Below are positions 2,934-61,859 of a stretch of 64,000 nt of DNA, piece after piece. The DNA lies in contig NW_001799511.1 in assembly GCF_000165425.1 (NCBI RefSeq), positions 102,096-166,095 on the forward strand, in the 5' to 3' direction. Position numbers and translations under genes: made by a program. Each line of letters starts with the position of its first letter. Position 1 is the first letter of the stretch. The notes under the pieces are model-generated. The model saw nothing but the letters and a program-made list of their open reading frames with translations. It had not been told where the DNA came from and did no database searches. Origin of the DNA: Paramecium tetraurelia (Eukaryota; Ciliophora; Oligohymenophorea; Peniculida; Parameciidae).

Positions 2934-4985
2934 ATGTAATTTATTCCATTCTCACCCTTGATTGATATTGGATTTTGGTCCTAATTATCAAAAAATAAGA
3001 TTGAGATTTACAAATTGGATGACGGCGAAAGATCTTTGCTAGTGAAGACAAAGATAAATCCATACCCTGAAAAAACTTCATAATTATATTTGGATATATA
3101 TTCATTCCAAGACGAGATTACCATCAATAAATCTGGTCCTTTTGAAGTGTATTCAAGAATTTAATTCTAAAACTACAATACAATTGAGGCCTATTAAGAA
3201 TTCGATCATTTGAATTATGTGCAATAAACCTTTAAAAAGATGATTGAGTCATTTTCCAAGGAAGAGAAGCCGAATCTCTTTCCAGCAAGAATGAGCATCT
3301 TTGCTGATCTAAAGAAATATTTGTTCTATTTTAAACTGGTTGTTCCCCAATTTTAAGTTGAAAACATATAGAATATCATTTAGAAAAATCTTACTGATTA
3401 TTTAGGTGATCAAATGCCCTAATTTTAATAGTAATTATCCCTCATAATCCAACAATAACAAAAAGAGATATCAAATACTTCATTTGTCGTTCTAAGGAAG
3501 GACAATTTGTAATATGTACAATTCGAAGACTATTACAAAAATAAATCAGAGGTTGTATTCTTGTATTTCGATTCCTTCAATTAAGCACAGATAAATGGTC
3601 AATTTAATAACTTTATAGCTTTCTTGTTGACAAATAACTCTTTTAAAGATCAACTCAATAATGTTAAAATAATAGTAATAAAGGATGCTTTGACAATCAA
3701 TAAGAACCAATTTTAATTCAAGAATTCCATTTATGTTGAATTAAACTTATCTGAATCTAAAATAACTGAATTAAATGGACAGTATAAAGCTTTCAATATT
3801 GAAGGTTATCTTTAAGAAAAGAGAATAGATTTAAAATCATTTATGGATGAATAATCGTATTTAATATTTCTAATTATAATTTAGACTAGCCAAAGAGGCT
3901 GTAGATTTGAATATCAAATTAATGAAGTGGAGATTGTTGCCTGACTTGGATTTAGATAAAGTTTAGACACAGAAGGTGTTGTTAATAGGAGCAGGAACTT
4001 TGGGTTGTCAACTAGCAAGAAATCTCATTGGTTGGGGAATAAGAAAAATAACATTTGTAGATTATGGGAAGATCTCTTATAGTAATCCAGTTAGACAAAG
4101 TTTATACGATTTTGAGGATTCAACAAAGGGAGGAAGACCAAAGGCTGAGGTGGCTGCAGAAAAATTAAAGAAGATCTTTCCTGATATAGAGAGTGAAGGA
4201 TATTAACTTCAGATTCCTATGCCTGGTCATTTTGTCACAGAATTATAAGTTTAATAGACCTTGGAATCATTTTACAAGTTAAGTGAATTAGTAAGCACTC
4301 ATGATGCTGTGTTTTTGTTGACTGATTCAAGAGAATCCAGATGGTTGCCCACCGTATTGAGTAATGCATATGGAAAGATGTGTTTTTCTGTGGCTTTAGG
4401 ATTTGATTCATTTTTGATTATCAGACATGGTATTTCATTGAAAAAATACAATCCTGAAATCCATGGGGAAAGATTAGCATGCTACTTTTGCAATGATATC
4501 TCATCTCCTGGAAATTCAATGAAGGATAGAACTTTAGATCAATAATGTACAGTTACTCGTCCAGGTTTATCCTTCTTGGCTTCAGCTTATTCATCTGAAT
4601 TATTTGTCAGCTTAATCCATAGTCCATTATTGGATGGAACTCCAGCATCTGACAATCCAGACCAATTGTAATAGACTGATTTGGGGATATTGCCACATTT
4701 CTTGAGAGGTTAGTTATCAGACTTTGAAGTTAGAATATTTTATGGAAGAGCATTTAAACAGTATTGTCCATCTTGTATTTTAGTTGCGTGGCATGTTCTT
4801 AACAGATTTTAGATGCTTTGGAGAAGAATCCTTAGGCATTTTTATTGGAGGCTTTGAATAGACCTGATATTCTATAGGATATTTCAGGTATAACCGAGGA
4901 GTTGACTTAGAACAAATAAGAGATTCATGAAATCTAAGATATAGACGGAGATGACGAATGCTCTGTGTTATAGATAGTTTCATGA
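2934..4985 (+). CDS. ATG7: autophagy-related protein 7 (E1-like activating enzyme)
   Basis: E1-like enzyme that adenylates and thioester-links ATG8 and ATG12 and passes them to ATG3 and ATG10 during autophagosome formation. The start [15 protein letters not shown] matches the ATG7 N-terminal domain. The C-terminal E1 domain has the nucleotide loop [20 protein letters not shown], then [20 protein letters not shown] and the catalytic cysteine in DRTLDQQCTVTRPG. An intron of about 28 nt falls at 3869-3896. A second, about 23 nt near 4780, has a weaker GTTG donor and is needed to restore the C-terminal tail ([18 protein letters not shown]). About 665 aa, near the usual size. Confident. Confidence 0.95.
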
Positions 4986-43835: not shown

Positions 43836-45119
43836 ATGCAAACAAAAAAAGAGCCATTATTTTTGAAACCTTAACTAAGTGCAGGGACCTTAAATAAGGA
43901 ACCTTTAACAATTAGATTTCTGAGACACTAAGCAAAATCTTAAGATGTATTTATTTCCTTCTAAAATTAACAGCTTTACACCAATTTCTTGTAACATAAA
44001 GAACCAAAAATAGTCAAGCAACCAAAGAAATGGACTTTGAAATAATTATTAAATATTGTTGATAAGTAATCATCAGCAATATCAACAACTCGTTTTTTCA
44101 ACATCAAAAGTTCAAACAAGAGAAGTCAAGAATAAAGTAAAGAGAAGGATAAATCAGAAGTCGTTCCGATAGTAGAAGAGAAATTCGTTGAAGAATAAGT
44201 TGGTGAATCAGCAAGAATACGATTAGTTAAATTTCTATCCTTTCACAAAGTGAATTCGAATGGATAGGTTGATAAAACCAAGTAAGGCTTTAATTTAAAT
44301 TTATCTTAAATAAAACCAGAGAATCAAAGCTAAAGTAATATAAAGAAAACTCTCATCAAAATAAATACTTCAAGATTTAAATAGGATCTCAATAATAGTA
44401 CATCTGATTAAAGAAATCAATTGAAGACAATAAAATAGAAAATTCAGAATGCTATTATCTCTACTGATAGAAAGATTTTAATTTCGTATGCTAATACAGC
44501 TTAATAACTATAATTAACCTCTGGCAGAAAAAGAAATAGCAGAATCGTAAAAAAGTTTTAGAGAATTATTAAAGAAATAATTTAGGTTGTAAAATACATG
44601 TTGAAATACAAATTATGGTTTTGTTATCCGATTACATATAATCGAACATTTTTGTAGAAAGTCGTAGACAAATAGTTCGAATAAATCAAAAATGAGTTGC
44701 ATCAAGATCCTTAATTAGTGCATATTCGAAACTAAGTATTTTAAATAAAGTAAACAAGAGCATGGATAAACCCCCTTGCATTTAGCGTGCATCTAAAGTA
44801 ATTTTGCTATGACCAAATTATTTATTTAAAACAGAAGTTATCTAAATAGTTTGGATTGCAATGAATTAACTCCCTTATCATATGCAATTTTGTCAAATTC
44901 TACCATATGTCTTAAGGTATTAATTAACATAAATTAAAGCTACTACTTGATTCGCTTGCATCTCCTTGGTCACCTCCTGGATAAATGATTGATTTAAGTA
45001 AGGTTACTACCTTGATGAAAGAAATGATACTTAAATCAAGGATGTATGATGTATTACGTATTTGGAAGAGAGAAGTAAAGATTAAGCAATTGGTTAAATA
45101 ATTTAGTAAAAATAAATGA
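43836..45119 (+). CDS. ankyrin-repeat protein
   Basis: Starts MQTKKEPLFLKPQLSAGTLN. The N-terminal 280 residues are basic and disordered. After a 25-nt intron near 44734-44758 the frame enters ankyrin repeats: NQHGQTPLHLACIQSNFA, then NSLDCNELTPLSYAILSN, each with the TPLHLA or TPLSYA turn. A 23-nt intron near 44914-44936 follows, and a helical tail (MIDLSKVTTLMKEMILKSRM) leads to TGA 45117-45119. Only two to three repeats are present. Protein-protein interaction role from family; the partner is unknown. Confidence 0.78.
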
Positions 45120-45291
45120 TTTCTTTGTGTTTTTTCTTTATAAATTAATTTTATAATAACCAATAATTCATTAAATATTATTAATCGGATTGACTAACTT
45201 TTAATACTCCATTGTAATTTTAATTTTGAAACTTACAATAATTAAAGCAATATAATAGCAGATTTTAATATAAATTTATATATAAGTAAAA

Positions 45292-45720
45292 ATGTAAGAC
45301 GCTTAATTTTTAAATTACCAAGTTGAAGCAGAGCCAAATATTTAACCAATTAGATCAATAAAAATTCAATAGAAGAAAGGTTTAATGATGATTTTTTCAT
45401 CCGATTCAGAAAATTTAGAAAATGATTTGAGAGTTGATAACTCCTAATATTATAGAAAATAATGTTAGGAGAGTTATTCTCTGTTCACCACTAAGAATTC
45501 ACTATCAGGGAAATTGAAAACTTTGACTCAGCCAAGCAATTCTATAACTTCCAAGGCAAAACTAGCATCAATTAGAAAAATTAAATCGTTCAGACTTGAT
45601 GAAGACGCATAGAGTCAGGATGAAGAAGAAAGTCTGCCTAAGGATTTTATGAAAGTTAATTTTCAGTTTAAACAAGACCTGATAATTAATGTTTAAAAAA
45701 TCCTTTAATAAAAGAAATGA
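45292..45720 (+). CDS. hypothetical protein, 142 aa
   Basis: Single frame ATG 45292 to TGA 45718-45720 (MQDAQFLNYQVEAEPNIQPI). Polar, with a basic Ser/Thr-rich centre (TKNSLSGKLKTLTQPSNSIT) and an acidic patch (DEDAQSQDEEESLPKD). No domain or membrane segment. Composition and exact length support a real gene; function unknown. Confidence 0.7.
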
Positions 45721-45833
45721 TTACACTAAGAATATTATCACTAAATTACTCTTATTTAAATTTATTAAGAAAATATACTATTTAATTATTTTATATTTTA
45801 TCGATTTATAATTTATATAAACTTCATTATTTG

Positions 45834-47006
45834 AGTTGATCTGTGTAGTCTAGAGATTCAGCTTAGACGAGCAATTAATCTGGTAATTGACATGGCTATT
45901 TAGCACTCTAACTATAGACTGATAAAGATTTTTATAAAGTTGGATTGACAACATTTTAAATAAATCCTAAGGTAAATTTATCATATTCGTTAATGTTTTT
46001 GATTGAAGAGATTTCTTAAGCAATTTATACAATTTGATTAGCGATTTTATGACACTCAGCAGTTAAAATGGTATAGCTTTTGTTTTTAGTTCTATCAAAT
46101 AGGATATCACTCTCATTTTTTAATAAGATACTCCAAATACCATAAACTTTAAAATATTTCTATCCACTCAAACAATATTCAAGTATTTCTGGATGTATTT
46201 CATCTTTAATTTGAGATAATCTATTGTGAGCATCAATTAGTTTAGTATAGCTTGACTTACAAACTCTGACCATGCTTTCATATTATTTTTGAAGTCTGAA
46301 GGTTTCTAAATAAAAGAAATTCATGTTGCATTCTATTAACAATTTAAAAGAAAAAATGGTTGTCATTTTTAGTTCAGGAATCAGTTACTGTTGCTTTGTG
46401 ACAAGGAAATGCAATAAATCATCCATGACGTTGCATAATCTTTAAAAAGGCATCCATCCAGTTGATACAACTTTTAGACCTTCTTATATATCATTTAAAT
46501 CGATATTATTTGGAGTAGATAACATTGAATACCTTAGTCTTAAGACATGTGGGGTTGCAGAGTTATTGAATCCCAATAAATACATATATCTGACCATCAC
46601 AATTTCACATCCGCATGCTTCTTCAGCAGCTATAATATTAATATATTCTATTTATACTATTTATTGATTCGGTTTTGTATTGCTATTATTTCTTATTTAT
46701 TGTAAGCTTGTAACTGAATTTTGGGTGTTCCTTAATTTTGATTAAGTACAATCTCATCTACAAAATATTGTATTATCATACCATATCAACATTAGTCTTG
46801 AGATAATTATCAAGAGCATCTTTCTTTGTCAATAATGATACTCGATTTTCAACTAAAGTCTTTATGTTTTAATGAGTTAATATGTATTTAACTTCACTCC
46901 TTGATCTAACAAATAGATTAGGATTATTACTTTTCCAAATCTTATAAGAACTACTGATCTTCTTATGCAAGACCTTCTTTGTTTTTTAATTTGATGAATT
47001 GAACAT
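45834..47006 (-). CDS. hypothetical helical protein, about 373 aa
   Basis: Minus strand. The start is chosen at 47006 (MFNSSNQKTKKVLHKKISSS) because the other nearby ATG frame ends quickly. Introns of 24 nt near 46757-46780 and 28 nt near 46636-46663 join the exons. The C-terminal part is cysteine-containing and helical (ACGCEIVMVRYMYLLGF, FQRLCNVMDDLLHFLVTKQQ, FDRTKNKSYTILTAECHKIA). No domain was recognised. Fold looks globular, so a conserved protein of unknown function is likely. Confidence 0.7.
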
Positions 47007-47128
47007 TATCAATAATCTCTGGTGTTTCATGGACAAAAAACATTGTGCAAATTTATTTTAAATTAAATATAATTTCCAAAATTTTACAAAAGTGCATATA
47101 CATTATTAAATTCATAATATAGAGTGAT

Positions 47129-47706
47129 TCATTTTTATTTAAGGCTTTTCTTAAAATTCTAGATCATTTACTTTTTTTGTAATTATTGGAAGAAAGCTTT
47201 AAATATCTAAAGCTGTCTATGTTCATCAGCAATTTGTATGTTCTTTCTTTCAGCATGCTTTTCTAAAGCATTGTACGCTTTCATCAAAAGTTTACGTTAA
47301 TAGAAGATTTAAGCTAATTGATCTAAATCATCATCAATCTTAGATATTTATTTTATAATTGTTTCTGATTTTCTATTAGGAATGGCAAAATTATTGGGTA
47401 AAGTTGGTTTAAAATGCTGGACTGATGGACGATTTACAATGATTGGCACTCTCTCTTATTTGACTGATTTAGTGAATAATTCAGTCTAATATTGATGAAC
47501 ATCATCTTATTCATTGAGAATTTGCTTTTAAAGTTAAAGATTTCTTTAAAAGGCTTTATATTATGAATCTTCGGTTATTGGTTTCTATTGAGTCTAGTTA
47601 AAATAATTATTTAGTATACAAGGTAATCAGCTATTGGAACATTTAAAAAGTTAAGAGATTTCTCTCTTAAAACACTTCTATGATTTATAAGATTGGCAGA
47701 CAACAT
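47129..47706 (-). CDS. hypothetical coiled-coil protein, about 183 aa
   Basis: Minus strand from MLSANLINHRSVLREKSLNF, with one 26-nt intron near 47613-47638. The body is Gln-rich and helical; a Pro-containing segment (VPIIVNRPSVQHFKPTLPNN) separates two helical parts, and the end is a charged helix (FFQQLQKKQMIQNFKKSLKQ). No known domain. Confidence 0.7.
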
Positions 47707-47775
47707 TAAATTAACAGATAATATAATAAATTTTATCTGTTATAAAATTTTATTTGATAAATATGTATTAGACTA

Positions 47776-48736
47776 TCAAAATGGCTATTAATTAGCTTCG
47801 TCATCTGGCTAATCCTGTTTTGAATTTGGTTGAGGGGGTATTTATGATTGTTATAATTGTGATTATTATTATGATTATTATTAAACTTGGGAATTTTGAA
47901 CTTGCTTTCCAAAGACTCTGCGACCAGTGTTCTTCTTTTGAAATATTGTGGAAGGTTACTAATCCACTGGCTATTGTGGCTATCTAATTTCACTCTAATT
48001 TTAATTCTGAAAAGGCTTATCCTATTATTTTTCTTAGTTTTCTTCGTCATCCTATTTTGGTTATTATACTTAATCAACCATTCCTTCTCTATAAATTAAA
48101 GCTGATTTCATGAGTGGTCTAGATGAGAAAGGAGGTCTCCAATTTTAAGGCATAATTGTTTAGTAATTAAATAGTAATCCGAAAAGTATTATAAACACAA
48201 ACCCATAAATAAAATGATAAATGCTTATTAGTATCAGATTTCTCTTATTCTCATCTAATAAATTATTTGATGAACTATCATAATATTATTACTTTCTCCA
48301 TTAAGTCATTTTATTCCAGCCTTCTTGGATATCACTTGTAGTAAGACTGTATGATTAAATTATTGAAACAACTCCTATTATAATAGCAGCTAAGGAATAA
48401 AGCAATAGAGGCCATCTAACAAAAACAACTATTGAATGTTTCACATTTTCCAATGCGTAATATATTGTGTAGAGAAACAATAAAGTAAAAAAGTAATATG
48501 CAATAATACTTTGCTAAAAAGGCACAGGAGCTTCTATTCCATTCATTGAACATACTTAAACTCCTGGTATCATACTTATTAATTTAAATTCAAATTTACC
48601 ATAATGCTTATAAATATATTGTGCAGAACAAGAAACAAAAACACAATAACCATAAAATACAGTTTTTTTGCCTTATTAGATTTTAATCTAAAACATTCCC
48701 ACCACCTTAAGCATTTTGATCATTTAATGGCTCCAT
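47776..48736 (-). CDS. multipass membrane protein with Gln-rich cytosolic tail
   Basis: Minus strand from MEPLNDQNAQGGGNVLDQNL. Four hydrophobic segments are seen: CILWLLCFCFLFCTIYL, IIAYYFFTLLFLYTIYYAL, LLLYSLAAIIIGVVSII and LILISIYHFIYGFVFIILFG. An extracytosolic Cys-containing loop lies after the first, and a long Gln/Asn/Pro-rich C-terminal tail follows. One 25-nt intron near 48575-48599 removes a TGA. The four-helix layout recalls tetraspan proteins, but no signature motif was seen. Function unknown. Confidence 0.72.
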
Positions 48737-48959
48737 ACTTCCGTGTCTTTAAAATTATTATTACATAAATATTTATCTTTTATTTCAATTATAATTATAT
48801 ACAGACAATTCTCATACTGTAAATAAACCACTATATGATAGTTTGTAATTTTTTCCATCTCCATTTTATTCAATGATTGAAAATAGATTCATAATCAATT
48901 ACTCAAATAATTTATTAACTTAATCCGCATTAAATACTGATTAATCTTATTATTATAAA

Positions 48960-50734
48960 ATGAAAAATAAAGATTAATTGAATTCGTGCTTCCGATTAGT
49001 CTAATATTGCCTTCCTAATTTAAGACTACGAAATTAATTCATTTTAATAGTGGCAGTATTTGTTTTGCTCATTGTTACAATAATCGCTTTATGGAATTTA
49101 GCACATTAGTCTATTTTAAATAACCTATTTTTAGGCGAGTCTGATCTATTATATGATACTTAATCAAAAATAAGACTATCATTTATGCTGAATAAGTATA
49201 AATCCTATTTCTATTAAATATTTGCTTTAAGTAATGATTTATTTGAATTCTAGACGGAAATGCTCTCATTTCATTTCATAGATTGTATTTAAGAACCAAA
49301 AAGGAAGTCATGAAGGGCTCGCTTGAAATTAATAAAAACTATTAAATGGAATATGAAGGAATGATTTAAATACCTGATCCTTTGAGAATACTAAATGAAT
49401 ATGGTTCAAACATCTCAAATTCTTTTATGTGTTACTCTAACACTTCGGCCTACAGTCTTCCATTGACTGAAGAGGAAAGAATAGGAATTAAATTATAAGA
49501 ATAAATCTAAGCCTATGGATAAATATTATATTAAGGTTCATTAATAATGCAATCCAATATTTACTCTTATATTGACCTATAAAAAATAAATAACTTATAT
49601 CCATGTGTCAATAGAGGCTAAGGTATTTTTACTTATGCCCCTGAAAAGAGAGATTGGTATAAAACGCTAAAATCCACATATTTCAATGCCACAAAATATA
49701 ATTCCTATTCCTTTAAATTTACAGCTCCATATTTATGTGATTATTCATTTATTATTAGAAAGTGTTTACATACTAAACAATAGGGTTGTCTATGACACTA
49801 CCTATAGTGGATGAAAATGTCAAATTTGTAGGAGGAGTTTCATCAACATTTTTAGGTTCAAAATTAGTGTAATATCTATCAAACAACGAAACAGGATTTC
49901 AATTAACTTATTTGGTTTCAGAGGATGGTACATTAATTATGCATCCTTTTACAGTTAAAGCTGATTAGTTGCCACTTTATATTTATAATGAAACTTTTAC
50001 TGGATTCAATTTGACTGATTGGTATGAAATAAAGAAGACTGATGGAATATCTTCATGTTAATAATTTAATCTTCGAACTACTTTAAAATGTCGATATAAT
50101 TCGGTTACTCAATAGGAAATGATAGTCACTATTGAAAATCTAATCGAGTATAAAATGTATTTAATTATGTAATAAAATATTGAAGACAATAAATAGGTTG
50201 TTGAGTAGTAGTGAATACGTGTCATTTACAAACACGTTTCATAAAACATTAGAGAAAAAGTTAATTGATGAAACAATTGTCTAAATCATATCTTTGGTAA
50301 TTTTGTTTTTAGTTTTGTGTTTATTAATGATAGTGGCTACATAAATTTTGTTTTCGCCTATTGAAATAATTGTCAAGACAACATAATTATGGCTCCATAA
50401 AAAGTAATAACATGTTTAACTAACATTACCCAAAATATCTTAAGTTTTTATAAGTAATGAAATACAAATGCTTGAAAAGGCATGTTAATTCATGTATAGA
50501 ACATTAGAGATGAATTCATTTCATAAAACAGAGTAATGTGAAGCAATAGAGAATATATAATATCCAATTCATTTTATAGAAATCACACCCTATCTAGAAT
50601 ACTATAGATGGTTAGATTATTTTAATGGATACAATTAAAATACAATAAAAAATAATGTTAAAGATAAAGCAAAAATATAATATATATTCACTTACATCTT
50701 AAAACTTCAAAGAAATATGAAACCCTAAATTTGA
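48960..50734 (+). CDS. Cache-domain-like membrane receptor
   Basis: Predicted sensor: a short N-terminus, a transmembrane helix (FILIVAVFVLLIVTIIALWN), about 400 extracytosolic residues, a second helix (IISLVILFLVLCLLMIVATQ), and a short cytosolic region. The outer part has Cache-like features: CYSNTSAYSLPLTEEE, FTYAPEKRDWYKTLKSTYFN and LSMTLPIVDENVKFVGGVSS, the typical ...R.WY.......P......T...P.... order seen in ligand-binding Cache domains. Introns of about 23, 20 and 28 nt (49234-49256, 49770-49789, 50169-50196) are needed; each corrects phase. No enzymatic output domain is present, so signalling would depend on partners. Confidence 0.75.
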
Positions 50735-50868
50735 AAACTACATATGAGTTTTTTGTTTTTAATAAATAGAATTATAATCTAATAAATTCTGAGTCTCGTC
50801 CAATAATTTTATTTAAAACATTCATATATAAGTTGATATTAAATTAATCTACTTGCATTATTTTATTT

Positions 50869-51897
50869 ATGCAAAATTCTGATACAGACGAGGTATAAAA
50901 TAACATTCTACATTTAGGAATGTCTGTGTTTGTTTGATCCCAATACCTATCAAGAAGGTTAAGGACCAAGGTTTGGAAATTGTTACTAGCCACCGACGTA
51001 CGACGAATTAACAGCAGCATCCACTGAAAATGGATTAAAGCTATTACCAAACAATAGAGAAAAGTTTTTTGAATTTATTCTGAAAGAACAGGTATATAAA
51101 TAATGAATTTTTAGTAAGTAAGATTGAATCCAAAAGTCTAATAATTATATAAAGATATGAATCATTCAAGTGCTGTAGAGCATGCTATACATTCCGAATT
51201 ATTTAAGTCATTTGGATATGATGATTGCCCTCTTAATCATAAATTATATTTTGCCTTAACAAGGAAATATTCAAATGATCCTGAACTTAAGCCTTAAGTA
51301 TTTTTTTGGAGGAATAATGTTATGCATGGAAGCAGAGTGAAGTTACACTAAACACCTCCTCCTATACCATTATTGACACTTGAAAATAAAGAACTTCAAT
51401 TAGAATAATTATTGTAATCTGCCCATGAAGAACAAAAGTTGTGTGTTATTTTTGCTGGCAGTTACACATGACCTCCTTATAGAGATTCTATGCCAGATTA
51501 CATTGAATTTGCCTAAAAATAGAAAGATACATGCAAATGCCAATTTATATATATAAAAGAGGCTCACTTTCTTGAAACAGATGATAAAGGCAAATTCGTT
51601 GATGGATGGCCAAGAGGATATTTCGGCTTTGAATATCCTTAACATAAAAGCCAGGAATAACGATTTTAAATGGCATAAACACTCAAAACTAAGTATAACA
51701 TTCCAGATGAATTTCCTATATATCAAGATGTCTACCCTTAAAATCTATTTGATGAATCATTTGGTATATGGCCAGATAACTTATGTGTTTTTAAAGATAG
51801 TAAATTAATTTATCGAGGTATAATAAATTTGGATGGAACAAGAAATGCAAGTTATTCTAAGGAATTAGAAGAATTGCTTGATCACTTTAAATATTGA
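50869..51897 (+). CDS. iodothyronine-deiodinase-like selenoprotein, 326 aa with internal Sec
   Basis: Thioredoxin-fold redox enzyme of the deiodinase family. Start MQNSDTDEECLCLFDPNTYQ. Introns 50893-50917 (25 nt) and 51092-51114 (23 nt) leave exactly 327 codons. At residue 185 the frame meets TGA in the context FAGSYT-TGA-PPYRDSMPDY, the exact place of selenocysteine in the deiodinase motif (G-S-C-T-Sec-P-P-F). Downstream family blocks follow in the same frame: CQFIYIKEAH, DGW, and a final LIYRGIINLDG and LEELLDHF. The TGA cannot be a normal stop, because 142 well-conserved codons follow and a SECIS-type hairpin lies just after the terminal TGA 51895-51897. No membrane anchor is seen. The substrate is unknown; thyroid-hormone use is not implied. 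Confidence 0.88.
51469..51471 (+). other. TGA selenocysteine codon
   Basis: In-frame TGA at the catalytic Sec position of the deiodinase-like gene, followed directly by two Pro codons as in the family. UGA is otherwise the only stop codon used in the window. Confidence 0.85.
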
Positions 51898-51921
51898 TAT
51901 TTTTCTTATTAAAGAAAATGC

Positions 51922-51986
51922 ATTTAAAAATGATTTTCTACATTGTAAAAAGTTCAACAGATGTAGAAATGAAGTTGAAATTAAAT
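51922..51986 (+). promoter_or_regulatory. SECIS element (selenocysteine insertion sequence)
   Basis: Starts 24 nt after the stop codon. Helix I pairs 51922-51927 (ATTTAA) with 51981-51986 (TTAAAT). The SECIS core is ATGA (51930-51933) opposite TGAA (51970-51973), giving the tandem G-A/A-G quartet. Helix II pairs 51935-51943 (TTTCTACAT) with 51961-51969 (ATGTAGAAA) and extends by TGT/ACA past one bulged G. The apical loop begins AAAAAG, supplying the unpaired adenines. All parts of the eukaryotic consensus are present, with the usual helix II length of about 12 bp. Confidence 0.85.
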
Positions 51987-52459
51987 ATATTTTCTTTATT
52001 TACAATTTTACATTATAATTAATTAAATTTTTTTCAATCCCGTCAATAACCCTGTATTTTAGCAATGTTCCAGATAAATTAGTGTGGTTACTAATTTTCT
52101 ATACGCAATTCTGTAGTAATTGTAATAAAAATAAAATTAAACTAATATTAATCAGAATCACAATTCTAATTAAAGTTCCCAAAATTAGATTTTAGCTTCA
52201 ATGCCAATTATTTTATTGCAGTCTTTTTACTTTTTAATCTAATTTAATATTGTAATTTATAATTTTAATGATGAATTAAAAATTAAAACAATTAATAGAT
52301 GTCAAGTTAAAGGCTAATTACTAATTAATAATACTAGGAATCAATATCACAGATGATTTAATAGTTTGTATAACTTGATAATTAAAATATCATATATTAA
52401 TTTAAGACAAGAATATAAATTGTAATATAATAATGTTTTGATTTGTTTATATATTTGAA
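51987..52459. other. intergenic, nothing recognised
   Basis: 473 nt of AT-rich DNA between the selenoprotein gene and the convergent trichocyst gene. No supported ORF or repeat. Confidence 0.55.
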
Positions 52460-53626
52460 TCATATTTCTAGTTTTTGAATGTAACTCTTAATTCCATCGT
52501 TGAATCTGCTTGTGAAAATTTCAATGCATTCGTTGATGATTCCAAGCTCAGTGTTTCTAATGATAAAATAGAATTATTTACTTTTATTATCTCATATTTT
52601 AGTGACCTTTCAATTCATCATCACAAGTCTTTTACCAGTCAGCTTTTTCTTAGCTTTTAACATCTAATAATTATCCTTTAGATTCAATGTCATTTTTTAA
52701 TTCTAGCAAGTTTTATCTCAATTTTTCAGCATCTGCATTCAAATCAGCCAAACTTGTTTCAAGAGTCTTACTCTCTAATTCATATCTTGCTTTTTATAAG
52801 AGATAAAGTTCTTCTTTGGCTTTTTCTCCTTGATGTCCAACCTTTTATAAATGTTCCAAAGACTTTAAAAATTGAATAGAATGATTACTTCAATTAATTC
52901 ATCAATAATTTAAACAACTTTAGAAACATTTTCATCTCCTGATGCTGCTACTAACATCTTGACGAGTCCATTATAAGGTGTTTGTTTATTATGTAAGGAT
53001 TCCAAATGTTTATGTAATTTAGCCTTAACATCAGCAACTTAGATAAAAGAACTATTGAGTTATGAAACAATTGATTTGGCTTTCTTCAATCCTTAAATAA
53101 ATTCAACAGATTCTGTTTATTTAGCTTCAAATGCTTTCTATAGTAATTTATTGTAAAATAGATACTTTATCTTCTTCTCTTGTCTTATCCAAAGTAGATA
53201 ATCTGTCTTTGATTTTTTAATCTTATCCTACTTTATCTTTAAGTTATTAATTCTTGGCAATCAATTCTTCTTGTCTAAGTGGGAATGATTGTTCATCTGA
53301 TGCCTTTTTTGCTGAAGCAGAATCAATAACACCTTAAATTTCATCAAAACGAAGATTGCAGAGTTCTTGTTAATGTCTCAAATTCTATGTATTTTCTTCT
53401 AAGTCACCTTATGCATTAGTTTACATGGATTTCAATTGATGTACGATTCCATCGATATTTGAGCTATGGAATTATTATTATATGGTATATACTCTTCACT
53501 TGAAAGGGAGATTTGCATTGTTGCTATGATTGTTTTTCCAAATTCATATTGGGATAATTCAGAAAGTAATTCATAGTCATTTGCTGTGACTATCAAAGCA
53601 AGGCATACTAAGACTATAAACTTCAT
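52460..53626 (-). CDS. trichocyst matrix protein (copy 1)
   Basis: Secretory-granule protein stored in trichocysts, the defensive extrusomes of Paramecium. Starts with a signal peptide (MKFIVLVCLALIVTANDYEL). The rest is acidic, Gln-rich and almost wholly coiled coil (LRQEELIAKNQQLKDKVGQD, LADLNADAEKLRQNLLELKN), as expected of the processed crystalline-core proteins. Four introns of 25-29 nt, including 53462-53490 (which removes an in-frame TGA), 53148-53175 and about 52876-52901, restore the frame; the last reveals the tail ELGIINECIEIFTSRFNDGI. It sits head-to-tail with a second family member 107 nt upstream. Confidence 0.85.
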
Positions 53627-53732
53627 ATTTTTAATATTATTAAAAACGATAATTTGTGATAGGATTAAAAAAAGAAAAAAATTGAAAAATATTTGTGCTT
53701 GATTAAGAAGAAACCTAAATAATTCATTCCTT

Positions 53733-54859
53733 TCAAACTTAGATGTTTGAGAAATCAGCACTTTGGACAACAGATAAAGCTTATTCACTGATTCCAAGTT
53801 CTCTTGTGAATTCATTCTTTAAGTTGGTGTAGGTATCGGTTTCTTCAGCATAGGTGTTATTTTCTAATTCAAGTTCAGCAGTGTATTATTTTCTGTCGGC
53901 CTCTCTTTAATCTCTGAATTCAGTCAATTAGTCGATCTTTTCTATAAATTATCAAAATTGACTCATACCATTGGTGGCTGTCAAATCAACATTGACTCTA
54001 TTGATTTATCTTTAGAATTCAGCATATTCCTCATCCAATTATTCAAGGTATTCCTCGTGATCAGCTTAAGCTTAAGCTTCAGCAGCTGTTTAAGCATTAA
54101 TTGAATCAACAACAGCATTTCTGAATTCGTTAAGAGCATCAACGATTTTACCAATAATTCCTTGATCAGAGAAGTTTTAGTTTGAAGCTAATGAAATAAG
54201 GGCCTTAATCATAGGAGCCATCTTGGATCTTGACTTGATCTTTTATTCGATGTTCTTCAAGGAATTTTAGAATCTCTTGACTTACAACAATGATGGGTTG
54301 GTGAGTGTCTAAAGAAGAGCAAGAGCATCATCGACTGCAGCAGTTGCATCATTTAATTCAGCAATTTAGAGTTCGAAATCATCATGTTCTTATTCTCTTA
54401 CAAGAATTGCTTCATCATAATTCTTTCTGTTGCCCTCTTAGTTTTCTTAGATTTATTCAATTCTAACTTAGAGTTACTCTCTTCTTGGGAATAGTAAATT
54501 ATCTAATGTGTCTTGTGTGTTATTGACATCTAGTTTAATAAATGGATATTATTACCAATGACAGCGTCTTAGATGTCTTATTCAAGACTAACCACTAATG
54601 CATTGTGTTCGTTGGTTCTGACTTAGAAATTGAATTCTAATTCTTCCAATTCTTCTTCAAGATCGTTGATAAGCTCTTCAATAGCATCAATCAACTCTTA
54701 GACTGGTCCTCCGGCCATAGAGTGGAGTTCTACTAAGTGGAGTAATGCACTTCCGTATGTGCTCTTCTTAAGGTCTGTTGTGACTTTTGCAAGATTTCTT
54801 TCTTGCACTCTAGCTGTGAAAGCTACTGCAATCAAGGCTATCAGCAATATTGATTTCAT
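53733..54859 (-). CDS. trichocyst matrix protein (copy 2)
   Basis: Same family and orientation as the next gene downstream. Signal peptide MKSILLIALIAVAFTARVQE is followed by coiled-coil sequence rich in Glu, Leu and Gln (ELINDLEEELEELEFNFQVR, ADHEEYLEQLDEEYAEFQRQ) with no Cys-rich or membrane segment. Two introns (about 54534-54559 and 53942-53968, 26-27 nt) keep the frame to TGA 53733-53735. The protein is probably cleaved after export to give the mature matrix polypeptides. Codon choice is strongly biased (GCT, CTT, GTC and AGA frequent), typical of a highly expressed gene and unlike most neighbours. Confidence 0.9.
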
Positions 54860-55508
54860 AAGAAAATTATTGCAAATAATCAATACAAAAAACACATAGT
54901 TAAACAACAAAAACGACTAGTCTTCATTAATTTAATAAACAAATTAAAAACGCTATTCATTTCTTGATAATAATATAAAATTATAGTTTTTCATTTTATT
55001 CTCTCATTGATTACTATAGTAAAATATTAGAATAATTAAATCTCTATATGTTAATTTATACCAAATATTCAACCAGACAATCTTCATAGAAATATCTTTA
55101 TCTATTGATTTCTATTTTTAAATTAATTCTAAATCTAAAATTAGTATAAAATTAATATTATGACTTTATTATTCTTACATTTATCTTCATACTTATTTTT
55201 TACATTCACTCTGATGTACTTAGTTGAATTATCAAAGATTCTAGACTTTCAGTAATATGGAACATGAATTTTGATTGCACTTTGAGAATGCCATGTAGCA
55301 TTAATAACATATCAAATTTATTTATATAAAATTAATACCAATAAGCTATTTAATTTTAAATAAGATTATGTAATGTATAAAACACAAAATTGAAATATAA
55401 TACTGATTTCATAATTATTGATGTTGCAAAATAAAATAATTCGATTATATAACATAAGCAAGAAAAATACAATTGATTTATTAGTATAATAAAGTTCTTT
55501 AATGTAAT
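54860..55508. other. intergenic, faint coding remnant
   Basis: 649 nt, AT-rich. On the minus strand near 55190-55310 a stretch reads like protein (SAIKIHVPYY, TGA, then KSRIFDNSTKYIRVNVKNKY) but has a stop and no start; it may be a fossil. Otherwise nothing recognised. Confidence 0.4.
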
Positions 55509-56584
55509 TCAATCTGTTTTTTGCATAACTGACTTTTTAGGGATTATGCTCTATTTGATTTCCCTCAACTTCTTAATTTCTTAATATTATTGTTTAATTT
55601 TATTTTATCCATATGGATCAAAGAATACAAAACTTATAGTTACAAAAGATACAGTCAAAAATCCAACCAAGAGAACTGCACCTAATGGTGTTTTAATCAA
55701 AATAAACAACAATTGAAATGAGAATTAAGGCCATTCCATCTATTTTTTCGGTTATTTAACTTCTTCTATTTCGATTTCATGTCCAAATCCATCTCTTATT
55801 TTGAGAATACTTTATTTCTCTTCTATTTCTTTTTCAATATTTTTTACCCTTTCTTAATTTTACTTTTTCATCTCCTCATTAGTCCTAGGAGTATTTCTCT
55901 AAATCCATCTTTCTTAAAACCTTTCCTTGTCTTCAAAATCTGTATCTTTCAAAGGACCTTTGAATAAAAACAGAGCTGCAATCGTTGCTTAATCTTGACT
56001 TGCACTAAATCCAACAATTAATTCATTTCTGCTATTTAAAGCTCCAATACAGATTTCTCCCTAATAATAGACTGTTCCCTCATCAATAATAAATTCTATA
56101 TACTCTGTATGAGCAGTAAATGTTCCTACTAATTGAAAGATGTCTATATTTTATAGAATCATCATCTTCCCCAACATTACATTAAAGATTCTGGAATTGC
56201 TTTCTTCATAAAATAACTAGATATTCAGAGCCTAATACCTCTGCAAATTTCAAAACTAAAACATAGGTTTGGTTCTCGGGAATATCATTCCCTATAGGAA
56301 TGGTATAGGCAAAACTTTACCCTTACCTCTAGGTAAGATAAAGGGATTGATCGTCTGTAAATTTTATTTTTCTTCTCTAAGCTCTTTCATAGTAATCTAC
56401 TATTTCTGACTATCCTATATAATGATGATCCTTAAGGTGTTAAGTGTTAAATTACCCTCTTATACTTAATGCCAGCAGATGATCTCGTATCTAAGAAATT
56501 TCCACAATCAATAGCATAAGTGACTCTTCTTGGCGCGATTAACTTACTTAAAGATATCTGAAATAGAAACAAGAAAATAATCAT
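55509..56584 (-). CDS. malectin-like ER membrane protein
   Basis: Malectin family, ER lectins binding glucosylated N-glycans. Minus strand from a signal peptide (MIIFLFLFQISLSKLIAPRR). The malectin fold is seen in RVTYAIDCGNFLDTRSSAGI, QSLYLTQR, FAYTIPIGNDIPENQTYVLV, LKFAEV (shared almost exactly with animal malectin) and EICIGALNSRNELIVGF. Then come a charged helical linker and a single transmembrane helix near the C-terminus (GAVLLVGFLTVSFVTISFVF) with a short Lys-rich tail. Introns near 56429-56454, 56315-56336 and others of 22-30 nt are needed. The Cys after Asp in the first block is unlike the Gly-Gly of animal malectin. Sugar binding is inferred, not proven. Confidence 0.78.
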
Positions 56585-57055
56585 ATAAACTTTTGCGTTA
56601 TTTATTATTAAATATTTTTCCAATTTTTTCTATTTCTTTATAAGAATTATCAAAGTCTCTTTTGTATAATATTGATAATGAACTCTAAAATTTAGAACCA
56701 TATAATTTGATTTTAAATATACAAATATATTAAAAGCTATATATCCTGATTGGCCTATAAAAAATCAATTATAGAATAACCTTCCAATGTTATAAAAATC
56801 TTTGAGTACATATTATTATATTAAATCGATACAAGAAAGCTAGATCTTACTTTAATTTCATCAATATCATTTATTCAAACTAAAGCCATACAATTAAACC
56901 AATCAATGTTGATAAAACTATACAATAACAATAATTATCACAATAAGATCCTTCTGAACTGAAGAGTTTAATGGATTAATTACTCGAATTTAAATTATAT
57001 ATATAAAAACCAATTGAAAATTTGATTAAATATTTTTTTAAGTATTTAATTGGAT
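56585..57055. other. intergenic, nothing recognised
   Basis: 471 nt of AT-rich DNA between divergent genes (malectin-like and RPS16); presumably holds both promoters. No ORF supported. Confidence 0.55.
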
Positions 57056-57550
57056 ATGTCAACACCAAGTGTGAAATCAAAACTTGTTTAAACTTTTGGA
57101 AGAAAGAAGAATGCAGTTGCCAGTGCTAGCGTTAGAGAAGGAAAAGGTATAATTAAACAATAAATGACAAGGCATTGTCAAAGTTAATGGTGCTCCTATT
57201 GAATTAGTCAACCCTGCCCCATTGAGATAAAAAGCTCTTGAGCCACTCTTGTTGTTAGGCTAAGTCAGAACAGGCAGAATCGATATCAGAGTCACTGTTA
57301 GAGGTGGTGGTACAACTGCTTAGATCTATGCCATTAGATAGGTAGCACTTTATAATTAATGACAAAGGCAATCAGCAAGGGTATTGTAGCATACTATCAA
57401 AAATACATTGATGAAACATAAAAGAGAGAAATCAAGGATCTTCTTTTACAATATGACAGAACTCTTTTGGTTGCTGATCCAAGAAGATGTGAACCACGTA
57501 AATATGGTGGTAAGGGTGCTCGTGCCAGAAGATAAAAGAGTTATAGATGA
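57056..57550 (+). CDS. RPS16: 40S ribosomal protein S16 (uS9)
   Basis: Small-subunit ribosomal protein whose C-terminal tail reaches the P-site t[23 protein letters not shown] begins the frame. Family blocks [53 protein letters not shown], and the diagnostic end [20 protein letters not shown] then KSYR are intact. Two introns (about 57147-57171 and 57341-57366, 25-26 nt) are needed. Length of about 147 aa is normal. Codon use is biased toward the set seen in the other ribosomal and trichocyst genes. Confidence 0.97.
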
Positions 57551-57604
57551 CTTAAAATAAAATCAATTTATATAAATGTACATTAAGCAAACAATTCTAA
57601 TTAA

Positions 57605-58026
57605 ATGAGCTAACCCACTCACTTCAATCTAGAGAACATTCAAATTTCACAAATTTTAAATCAAATTTCTTTAAATTTTTTTAATTTCAAATTACTAAAT
57701 AAGGTAACATCCAAGATAATCAGAGCCTCTTTAAAATTAGAGTTAATCCAAATAGCAAGTTGATAAATTCAATTTTTTAAGGGTTATTTTGGGAAATATA
57801 ATTTATTCATCTACGTCTAAAGTTGTTTATTATGATTATAATACTGCTGACGAAATAATACTCAATTAATTAATCAGCAATTGTTATTGGTATAATTACA
57901 CCACTATAATGCTTTATATTTAAGTAATTTAAAGAAATATTTAAGTCCAAATTATGCTTTGATTTAATTATAAAATTGTAATACCAAACTTTTCTACATT
58001 CAATAAATATTTTGAATAAGTAATGA
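57605..58026 (+). CDS. putative small protein, 133 aa
   Basis: ATG at 57605 (MSQPTHFNLENIQISQILNQ). Removing a 20-nt GTAACA...TCAG intron joins a frame (SLFKIRVNPNSKLINSIFQG) open to TGA 58024-58026; total 134 codons, an exact multiple of three. The N-terminus looks real. The C-terminal half is AT-rich and hydrophobic and may be chance or hide further introns. No family seen. Confidence 0.4.
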
Positions 58027-58111
58027 AGAAATACTATGGTTGATTTTTAGATTAAAGATCAATTAGAGAATATATTTAAATATTTTTAGAATATCATTTC
58101 TTAATAATTCA

Positions 58112-59317
58112 TCACAAAGTTACTTCTGGGATTTCTCCAATAATTACTGTTTTATCATTACTAGCTGAGGCTATCAATTTATCTTTTGGACTAAAGGCTG
58201 TTTCATTAACCTAATGTAAATTTAATTAGTAATTACAGTTCCTTAATGGCCTCCTAATTTATGGATTACTTTCTTTGAATTAAAATCCCAAATATACACA
58301 CTCTTATCAGCAGATCCTGCAGATACATATGAATCATCGTGACTCCATGCACATCTTAATAGATTCTTTTCTGCTGTATTTGCCGTCGCTCCTGTAAATA
58401 CCCTTACTTATCTATTTTTTCCTTAGACATAAGGTCTTTACATAATATTAACATTATACCTGATATCAAAAGTTCTAACTGTCATATCCATTGAATTACT
58501 CAATAAATAGGAACCGTCATTACTAATAGCTAAACCTGTAACAGTATCCGTATGGTTATCTAAGGTGTATTCAATCTCCTATTTTCTGACATCATAACAT
58601 CTAATGACATTGTCTAAACAACCTGTGTATAGTCTCTCTCCATTTTCAGTGAAACAAACACTAGTAATAGGATACTGTGGTTTATTAATAATAATATTTA
58701 CCTTGCCTTGAATTTCAAATGCTAACTTTCTTGTTCTTAAATCCCACACTTTAGTATAGCCTTCGTCACCTCCAGTTGCTAATAGATCTTATCCTCTTTT
58801 TGAGGGAAAACAACAATTAACATAACTTTAATGTCCTTTTAACTTTTTTAAGGGTAAATATGTTTCCATATCCCATATTTAAACAGTCTTGTCAGCTGAT
58901 GCTGTGAATAATCTCACCCCATCATATTACCAAGCAATATCAAGAATTGCATTTTTATGACTACCCAAAATCCCTATATTAGTGCAATTATTATAAATAT
59001 CCCAAATTAAAATTTTCTTATCAAATCCAGCTGTTATCAGATATTCACCATTCGGAGAGTATTTCACACAATACACCTCACTCTGATGTCCTATAATATA
59101 CATCCAATTTACCTGTTAATTGCAAATGAGCAGATTATAATGTATACTTTTTGGAGGGTTCTACTTCCATTGAATAATCAGATGATAAGACTAGATCTTA
59201 TTTATGCGATTTCTATAATAAATGGGGAGTATGCATTTGCAAAACTTGACTAGAAGTGTAATCTTTGAACTCTGTAAATTTCGGAACACTTGGTATTATT
59301 TTATTTCCGTAAGACAT
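58112..59317 (-). CDS. SNRNP40: U5 snRNP 40 kDa WD-repeat protein
   Basis: WD40 beta-propeller of the U5 snRNP/spliceosome. Minus strand from MSYGNKIIPSVPKFTEFKDY. After a 50-residue leader come seven WD repeats: GHQSEVYCVKYSPNGEYLIT, AGFDKKILIWDIYNNCTNIG, SASADKTVQIWDME, KLKGHQSYVNCCFPSKRGQD, then GCLDNVIRCYDVR, SYLLSNSMDMTVRTFDIRPY, LLRCAWSHDDSYVSAGSADK and the last repeat ending SNDKTVIIGEIPEVTL. LSNSMDMTVR and LLRCAWS are close to the human protein. Introns near 59092-59113 (22 nt), 58678-58702, 58436-58462 and 58205-58230 are needed. Typical length. It may serve this genome's tiny introns, but that is only context. Confidence 0.93.
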
Positions 59318-60261
59318 AATTTAATTATTCTATTTTTTATAAATATTATTGTTTATGCAACATATTCACATCAATTGCCTTATCATTCAACACTCATTTT
59401 ACAATAATACGGATTTAGAATGCATTAGATTACTAAGTAGCTAAGTTGGCGTTGTTTAATTATTTCTTTTACATTAAACTTAGAGCATCTTTTATTATCA
59501 CGCTTCTAATTTATCAAGATGAATAATTTGAAATTAAGTTTCATAGCAAATAATTGTTTCTCATTGTATCAATTATATAAAATTTCTGTTTGGACAACTT
59601 TTTTTCGAATTATTCTGAAATTATATTATAAGCCTTATCATTATTGTTCTTCTAATTCAATTCAATATTATTGTAGGCAACATAGAGATTAGTGATTTGA
59701 ATTAACTATATACTAAAGTATTAGAGGATTAAATATTTGTGGATTAGCATTTAAATTGATTGCTTTCAGAAAAAATATGTCTAATTTTAATCTGAATGAA
59801 CATATGCATGGATTAGTATGATAAAATTGAGATTATCTCATCAGAAATATTAATATTAGAATTTTGTAATAGAAATAGAATTAAAATAAATTCCCTTTGT
59901 TTACAAAGAATAAATTTTCTGATTTCAATATTATTTATATAAAATATATTAATTTCTTTTATAAAATTAAAATCTTAATTAGCTTATTATTAGTAATGAA
60001 TTTTAAGACTAAATCTGGAGACAAATTCTCACATCACCCTTTTCAGATCCAAAAAAGTAATTATTTGTAAAATATTAATGTTTATAATTTAATTGATTTT
60101 TTGTTTTAATTATTTAATATCTATGGTGATAGCATTTATGATTTTGTCAAATTAAAGTGAATAAATTGATCAGAATTAGCATTTAATAGGTTCATTAATA
60201 ATTGTAATCAATTCAATTAAAAATCTATCAAAAAAACATAAAGCGCGATGTATTTGCCTGT
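59318..60261. other. intergenic, nothing recognised
   Basis: 944 nt of very AT-rich DNA. Short open frames occur in all six frames, but none has coding-like composition or splice-consistent extension that I could support. Confidence 0.5.
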
Positions 60262-60695: not shown

Positions 60696-61859
60696 ATGTC
60701 GTTACTCTAAAAATTTACAAGTCTGTTTAAATCAAAAGATGATGTTTAATCCACTCTTTAAAAGCTCTTGAAACCTACAACAACGAATGAGCTCCAGGTG
60801 GCTATCAAAGGTTTCAATTAACTACTGTGTAATCAACCAGTGGCAATTTTTACAATGTTAAGATAGCGGGAAGCACTTGTGACTATGGATCCAAAACCAG
60901 AACACTTATTAAATTTATTGTTAGTAATTCATTCAAACATTTCAAATGATGACATTTGTGACTAGTTAAGATAAGTTCCAATTTATTGGTTAGATAGGTT
61001 GATGACCGAAAATAGAGAAAGTTTCATTTAAATTGAGAGGATGATTACTGAACAATCCACAAATAGTTATATCCCTTAATAATAATAATCATAGTATATT
61101 TAATAACAATAAAATTAAACTAAAGGAGAAAAAATAGAAGATAAAAGAAAAGCAAGAATAGAAATGAATCAAAAATTGTAAAATCCAATTATAAATACTG
61201 AGGCTGCAAATAATGCAGATTCTCATAATTTAAAACCAAAAATGTTTTGTATTATTTATTATTCATTCCTCTAAAAGTTATCAATCAATTAATAGATTTA
61301 TTAAAGCAGTAGAAAATTACAATATCCAGAAGATGAATAGGATTTCATTTGGATATATAAGATATAGAATGTAATGTAAATGGGATTAAAATTATTATAA
61401 TGCCCATAAAAATTATATAGACCTTATTAATTATTGATTTATTAGGATCTCTTTTATTTCTAATCATTTTTAAAATAAGAATTAGAGGCCCTTATATTAA
61501 AAGAGAATAACTTACATATCTACGAAGCCTTTTGTGAGTATTAGAGAGCAAAATCAATTATGGAGACCTTTGAACCTAGATATGAATTTAAATTGAAAAT
61601 CAATAGTTCAGTTATAGATGAATATCAAAGAAATGCAATAAAACAGAAAGTGAAATCTCAATTTGAAGAAGATTAAAAAAGAAAGAAATAGTTAATAAAG
61701 GAGAATTAAGAGAATATTGATTAATTAAATTTCTAAGATTTTGATTGTAATCACGATTTCGAAAGAGAAATAATAATGAGAAAATTCTTCGATAAAGGAT
61801 AATCAAATCAGATGAGTTTGGATGAAATCTCATTATAGCTAAAAATCATAAACTTATGA
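60696..61859 (+). CDS. hypothetical protein, 387 aa
   Basis: One intronless frame ATG 60696 to TGA 61857-61859, starting MSLLQKFTSLFKSKDDVQST. The first 110 residues are helical (LLNLLLVIHSNISNDDICDQ) and could form an alpha-solenoid. A Gln-rich linker follows, then a region with possible hidden introns (about 61240-61440), and a charged helical C-terminus (DEYQRNAIKQKVKSQFEEDQ). No domain was recognised. The LRR gene starts 25 nt downstream. Confidence 0.65.

Follow-up and report, generated by a model that had tools for sequence, protein, structure and literature searches.

The genetic code of Paramecium tetraurelia leaves TGA as the only stop codon, and a deiodinase-like gene in the stretch of DNA analysed here (64,000 nucleotides, hereafter the window) raises the question of whether the same codon can also be read as selenocysteine (Sec) within one mRNA. 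The initial annotation of this gene proposed that its frame passes through a first TGA at the Sec position of deiodinases, ends at a second TGA and is followed by a SECIS-type stem. We addressed this question by rebuilding the gene model, by comparing the predicted protein and stem with known families, and by searching the genome (69.07 Mb, 231 contigs, designated below by C and a number).

Ciliate-code translation of positions 50869-51897 yielded 326 codons and a stop, with a single in-frame TGA at codon 185. The rebuilt model (Table 1) bore out the earlier claim that two introns leave 327 codons, including the stop; the frame continued past the first TGA for 141 codons and a stop, in agreement with the 142 codons counted previously. 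Sixteen in-frame TAA or TAG codons were read as sense in the window gene, and 16 in a second gene located on contig C40 and described below. Of these 32 codons, 12 were opposite each other (6 columns), one was opposite CAA/CAG, and the remaining 19 were opposite other codons, mostly those for Lys, Asp and Glu.

Table 1. Positions of the window gene, its 3' stem, the third deiodinase copy and the hairpins found in thioredoxin reductase (TrxR)-type genes; positions are those of the window unless a locus (L) is given.
Feature	Position	Strand	Basis or detail
Exon 1, 8 codons	50869..50892	+	gene model; exon length identical in C40 copy
Intron 1, 25 nt, GTA...TAG	50893..50917	+	C40 counterpart at equal position, 22 nt
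Exon 2	50918..51091	+	gene model
Intron 2, 23 nt, GTA...TAG	51092..51114	+	C40 counterpart at equal position, 26 nt
Exon 3, remaining N-terminal domain and deiodinase (thioredoxin-fold) domain, to stop	51115..51897	+	gene model and domain matches
In-frame TGA, read as selenocysteine, residue 185 (GSYT-U-PPY)	51469..51471	+	aligned with Dio3 catalytic Sec
Stop TGA, codon 327	51895-51897	+	gene model
SECIS-type stem in the 3' UTR (lower stem, core, helix II, apical loop)	51910..51998	+	scanner and predicted fold
5' core ATGAT	51930..51934	+	scanner, stem comparison
3' core TGAA	51970..51973	+	scanner, stem comparison
Deiodinase remnant on C21	L014, about 4286-4575	-	coding remnant and SECIS-type stem
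Post-stop TrxR hairpin	L022, 1384-1435	-	fold -15.1 kcal/mol, z -2.3
Post-stop TrxR hairpin	L024, 2739-2790	+	fold -22.7 kcal/mol, z -3.9
Post-stop TrxR hairpin	L025, 2745-2796	+	fold -26.1 kcal/mol, z -4.8

The predicted protein matched the Pfam family PF00837 (T4_deiodinase) with 46.1 bits, against a curated cut-off of 27 (E 4.9e-12), and the NCBIfam family deiodinase_rel with an E value of 6.1e-9, under the cut-off of that family. Among proteins of known structure, similarity to mammalian Dio2 (PDB 9h48; E 1.8e-9) and Dio3 (PDB 4tr3; E 8.7e-6) extended across the thioredoxin-fold domain, and a two-sequence profile gave E values of 2.7e-10 and 2.6e-8, respectively. The first TGA does occupy the deiodinase Sec position, as had been proposed, within an S-x-T-U-P-P motif present as GSYT-TGA-PPY in the window gene and GSIT-TGA-PPY in the C40 gene. 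Compared with Dio3, the window protein has 9 extra residues in the omega loop and an additional N-terminal domain. For the first 158 residues, no match was obtained in NCBIfam (E up to 1) or, over the family cut-off, in Pfam (best E 0.043), and a genome search with the first 153 residues retrieved the window gene and the C40 gene alone (4 matches, E up to 10).

We mapped 22 residues of Dio3 onto the two proteins, and 13 were identical in both: Ser167, Thr169, Sec170, Pro171, Pro172, Tyr197, Glu200, His202, Trp207, Gln218, His219, Arg225 and Asp278. The nine changed residues were Cys168, Arg176, Asp211, Cys239, Tyr257, Phe258, Glu259 (replaced by Asp), Arg260 and Arg275. Within the network formed by the active-site motif and the loop anchor (Ser167, Cys168, Thr169, Sec170, Tyr197, Glu200, His202, Trp207, Gln218, His219 and Arg225), 10 of the 11 residues were kept in both copies, Cys168 being the exception and Trp207 being counted as kept depending on how the loop insertion is aligned. 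According to the available text of PMC7506546 and PMC9141512, the kept set belongs mostly to the active-site motif, the loop anchor and a proposed proton relay, and the lost residues include those of the hormone pocket and cysteines discussed as resolving.

None of the four hormone-pocket residues Arg275, Tyr257, Arg260 and Arg176 was kept in either copy, and a Cys-x-Cys (residues 206 and 208) was conserved in the ciliate proteins. With the thyroid-hormone clamp and both resolving cysteines lost, the substrate is probably other than an iodothyronine. These losses are only suggestive, since the position of Cys168 is Ala in the Dio2 PDB chain as well, and since Arg275, like Arg176, varies among mammalian Dio1-3 (PMC7506546); because of this variability, the loss of pocket residues alone leaves deiodinase activity unsettled. 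As the Dio3 residues that bind the hormone have not been kept, "deiodinase" would here designate a family rather than an activity.

A PF00837 profile search of the genome reported the C40 gene and missed the window gene. When the window protein was used as the query, we retrieved the window gene itself, C40:20543-21115 and a piece on C21. The C40 gene has the same three-exon form as the window gene and 326 codons, with a TGA likewise at codon 185, and the two proteins were identical at 200 of their 326 residues. Before the TGA (184 codons), pN was 0.29 and pS 0.63, with 58.7% amino-acid identity; after the TGA (141 codons), pN was 0.20 and pS 0.75 (saturated), with 64.5% identity. The pN/pS comparison indicates that the sequence past the TGA is under protein-level selection. 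Two objections that the initial annotation had named against itself thus lost their force: conservation did not weaken past the TGA, and a read error, with TGC or TGT as the true codon, is very unlikely given that the C40 copy carries an identical TGA.

The same comparison bears on the possibility that the TGA simply terminates translation, leaving a 184-residue N-terminal protein followed by a decaying remnant. This code does use TGA as its stop, and the third copy, on C21, has decayed; but amino-acid change was selected against at least as strongly past the TGA as upstream of it, both the window and C40 copies have retained the 141 codons and the same stop, and a SECIS-type stem lies 3' of the stop in each, so that we consider termination at codon 185 highly improbable.

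A second possibility is that a small intron removes the TGA, giving a shorter protein without Sec. In the window copy, two short candidates span the TGA, a 22-nt GT...TAG (51461-51482) and a 24-nt GT...AG (51461-51484), and the introns in the models of both deiodinase genes measure 22-26 nt. Removal of the 22-nt candidate would shift the frame, however, and the 24-nt candidate, although in frame, would delete the conserved active site. Moreover, both begin with GTT, whereas all four introns of the two genes begin with GTA, and the C40 copy has no TGA-spanning candidate of 35 nt or less. Overall, GT...AG stretches of 18-120 nt across the TGA numbered 38 in the window copy (14 in frame) and 10 in the C40 copy (7 in frame, 42-114 nt); the longer ones, found in both copies, correspond to chance expectation and lie far above 22-26 nt. 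Splicing of the TGA therefore seems very unlikely, and Sec at codon 185 is the reading retained below.

Only about the last 45-70 codons of the C21 copy are left, and these are broken. Identity between C21 and C40 amounted to 37/41 in the stem core, 155/205 aligned positions in the coding remnant, 21/26 in the spacer and 34/38 on the 3' side of the stem. Most simply, C21 would be a decayed copy with a fossil SECIS; possibly, its stem has been retained for its own sake. No neighbouring genes common to the three copies were found by tblastn of window positions 44000-60000 against about 9 kb around each of the others, so an origin by whole-genome duplication receives no support from gene neighbourhood. 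Relatives were not found in viral contigs, nor in bacterial and archaeal genomes searched with two peptide patterns.

Downstream of the window stop codon, we observed the claimed SECIS form, with an ATGA/TGAA core and a 12-bp helix II interrupted by one bulged G, topped by the apical loop AAAAAGTTCA. Two details of the earlier description had to be amended according to the predicted fold: the stem does not start 24 nt past the stop, as its first paired base is the 13th and the ATGA core lies at 33 bases, and the lower stem is longer than a 6-bp helix I, with 11 + 6 + 3 pairs. The fold of 51909-52000 reached -18.9 kcal/mol (z -3.49, none of 200 shuffles as good), and helix II alone with short flanks gave a z of -2.22 (5/200 shuffles as good). 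With their flanks, the stems of C40 (z -1.96, 5/200) and C21 (z -2.07, 7/200) folded less well than the window stem. Three pairs of helix II differed between C40 and C21, and pairing was retained at each. Between the window and C40, 8 of the 11 pairs counted from the core differed (6 of 11 with a one-pair shift), and the window helix was paired throughout, apart from the bulge. In its core, helix length, apical-loop AA and predicted fold, as assessed with the custom scanner described next, the stem matches the SECIS elements of eukaryotic selenoproteins.

We also used a custom scanner, which looks for [AG]TGA, a helix, a loop containing AA, and NGAN. It was written after inspection of the three deiodinase stems, which scored 25.0 (window), 20.6 (C40) and 21.8 (C21); independent tests are therefore limited to the TrxR genes and to the SECIS elements published for Tetrahymena. 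The scanner recovered four of the six published Tetrahymena SECIS elements. Within the 64-kb window (both strands), the window stem was the best of 13 matches. The second-best, which starts at 44985 (score 22), was set aside since it lies inside a long open frame; a third match starts at 61582 (score 18.6). In 411,758 strand-bases of other genome DNA, in which some loci overlap, 43 matches scored at least 14, four at least 19 and none 25, and 512,000 bases of Markov sequence yielded 51 matches of at least 14 and three of at least 20.

The covariance-model check suggested by the initial annotation did not lend support, as no Rfam SECIS match was found at the window stem, nor at any of six Sec-gene or remnant loci. 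Of 1685 candidates over the whole genome, 132 were scored with the Rfam model SECIS_1 (RF00031), and none of these matched at E up to 10; given that this model matched nothing in this genome, the TrxR stems included, its silence on the window stem says little. A covariance model built from the C40 and C21 stems (R1) recognized its own sequences (E 1.5e-12 and 5.9e-14) and nothing else better than E 0.23 over 12 sources, missing the window and TrxR stems; it was too near its two training sequences to be of use. MAFFT provided no structure-based alignment of the stems.

If the stem acts in Sec insertion, the corresponding machinery should be encoded in the genome, and, of the four components that the initial annotation proposed to look for, tRNA-Sec, EFsec and SepSecS were found. 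A tRNA-Sec with the anticodon TCA was detected on C88 (64.3 bits), the only one of 16 matches over the cut-off. Eight 80-bp matches to the same model, with 45.4 bits each, fell under the cut-off of 47 (L006-L012, contig C108) and are possibly serine tRNA genes. SepSecS was found on C200 (E 4.7e-107), in a match holding 15 TAA/TAG codons and no TGA. EFsec domain III was detected in two places, C55 and C34, each surrounded by long open frames; a single TGA inside the C55 match looks like part of a short intron. Selenophosphate synthetase (SPS) is encoded on C162 in a Cys form (GCGCKV), as two pieces that are each separately under the curated cut-off. This SPS locus (L017/L018, C162 near 409,580-410,120) contains a stretch of N, and the middle of the gene recurs there as a blurred second copy, probably owing to an assembly fault. 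The PSTK profile gave one weak match (24.2 bits versus a cut-off of 382). No SBP2 was recognized among 30 L7Ae matches, which, judged by eye, we take to be ribosomal or snoRNP proteins. This is unsurprising, since Tetrahymena SBP2 reportedly shares no more than about 22-25% identity with other SBP2 proteins (PMC7409322).

Other putative Sec genes were found in the TrxR family. There were 25 TrxR-profile matches in the genome, and C-terminal ends were read for nine genes, a count that leaves aside matches on C223 and C208 and further pieces on C24. Four genes (C24, C200, C14 and C56) exhibited a TrxR-type end, GC-TGA-G-TGA or GC-TGA-A-TGA, which in C24, C200 and C14 appears to be preceded by a short intron; five paralogues (C221, C192, C215, C187 and C134) had no GC-TGA ending. 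The scanner found one match in each of the first four, located 112, 126, 126 and 57 nt past the stop, with scores of 21.8, 19.0, 21.6 and 19.5, respectively, versus none in four of the paralogues without this ending (C134 being left out). Compared with 200 shuffles, the C24 (z -3.67, one as good), C14 (z -3.30, one as good) and C56 (z -2.08, five as good) stems stood out more than the C200 stem (z -1.18, 22 as good), and the minimum-energy fold of the C24 stem was not of SECIS form. Among the six GPx genes read, four encoded Cys (VACSC) and two had no site.

In three TrxR-type genes, we also observed a strong GC-rich hairpin directly past the stop, no more than about 10 nt from the Sec TGA (Table 1). 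In the fourth gene (L029), no such post-stop hairpin was found. These hairpins are reminiscent of a Sec redefinition element. Immediately 3' of the deiodinase TGA, no hairpin was found (fold z -0.77 and -0.93, the C40 piece starting one base inside the TGA). The TrxR-type end of L029 (2994-3008) reads Gly-Cys-Sec-Ala instead of Gly-Cys-Sec-Gly.

These data also bear on whether read-through or an additional tRNA might place another amino acid, such as Cys or Trp, at UGA. In Euplotes, another ciliate, UGA encodes Cys. In Condylostoma and Parduczia, it serves as Trp, stop and Sec (PMC4967479), and TGA also occurs inside some other family matches of the present genome (e.g., C24, C55 and C167), where it is taken as part of short introns. 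Against such decoding, two Sec families of this genome, deiodinase and TrxR, have TGA exactly where Sec is expected, and a SECIS-type stem accompanies each; a second TGA serves as the stop in all six deiodinase and TrxR Sec genes; and a Sec tRNA(UCA) gene is present. Decoding as Cys or Trp thus appears extremely unlikely, and Sec is by far the best reading of UGA 185 in view of the tRNA-Sec, the stems and the two families involved.

Overall, the window gene very probably encodes a 326-residue deiodinase-family selenoprotein, with SECIS-driven Sec insertion at UGA 185 and UGA 327 as the stop. The gene model, its conservation, the domain, the stem and most of the machinery genes were seen in the sequence, and Sec insertion, enzyme activity and substrate are predicted from them. 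In the proposed mechanism, the 3'-UTR stem would rely on an SBP2-like protein to recruit EFsec and its Sec-tRNA(UCA), so that UGA 185 is passed, and translation would end at an identical codon of that mRNA, UGA 327. In the product, an N-terminal domain private to two genes of this genome would precede a thioredoxin-fold domain whose active site reads Ser-x-Thr-Sec and in which the deiodinase network (Tyr/Glu/His/Trp/Gln/His/Arg) is present. Such a protein probably uses its selenol to reduce or dehalogenate a substrate that is not thyroid hormone. It is also conceivable, albeit doubtful, that the ciliate proteins form a distinct class of deiodinase-family enzymes acting on another halogenated or redox substrate of unicellular organisms, perhaps near the ancestral role of deiodinases; this idea is based on the nearly whole selenol network, the replacement of the hormone clamp and both resolving cysteines, the Cys-x-Cys and the private N-terminal domain.

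The central proposal of the initial annotation, that one codon is both Sec and sole terminator within one mRNA, is supported by the TGA in both copies, the stems, the tRNA-Sec and EFsec. Dictyostelium discoideum, another protist with a deiodinase homologue, uses the standard code. As described in the available text of PMC2375036, this homologue is likewise a SECIS-bearing selenoprotein of an organism not known to have thyroid hormone, and its SECIS is of type II with a very long mini-stem, unlike the window stem, which by our own reading looks like type I without a mini-stem. The dual use of UGA is not new: Tetrahymena, likewise a ciliate with SECIS elements in 3' UTRs, has already been described as using UGA both as Sec and as its sole stop (PMC2612030, PMC7409322). 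The selenoproteins reported for Tetrahymena thermophila are two GPx, three TrxR and SPS2, with no deiodinase in the available text of that report (PMC2612030); in the present genome, by comparison, Cys is encoded by SPS and by four of the six GPx genes read, the remaining two GPx genes being devoid of the site. Sec-containing members of the deiodinase family are also found in other unicellular eukaryotes, namely algae, in which 80% of DIO members carry Sec (PMC7539508); that survey covers algae, and the word "ciliate" is absent from its main text. No deiodinase selenoprotein of Paramecium or another ciliate was found among the titles and abstract openings listed in the literature searched, a scope outside which subscription journals and sequence databases lie. 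Thus, the kind of gene is already known, both for UGA as Sec and stop in Tetrahymena and for Sec deiodinases in protists, and its ciliate member appears to be undescribed.

The window gene adds a deiodinase-type selenoprotein to the ciliates, one that would presumably end at residue 184 in an annotation made with code 6. The presence of two divergent genes in one genome offers a comparison for the role of the deiodinase family in organisms without known thyroid hormone. Moreover, with one codon used as Sec and as the only stop in one mRNA, the gene is a compact test case for a question already posed in ciliates.
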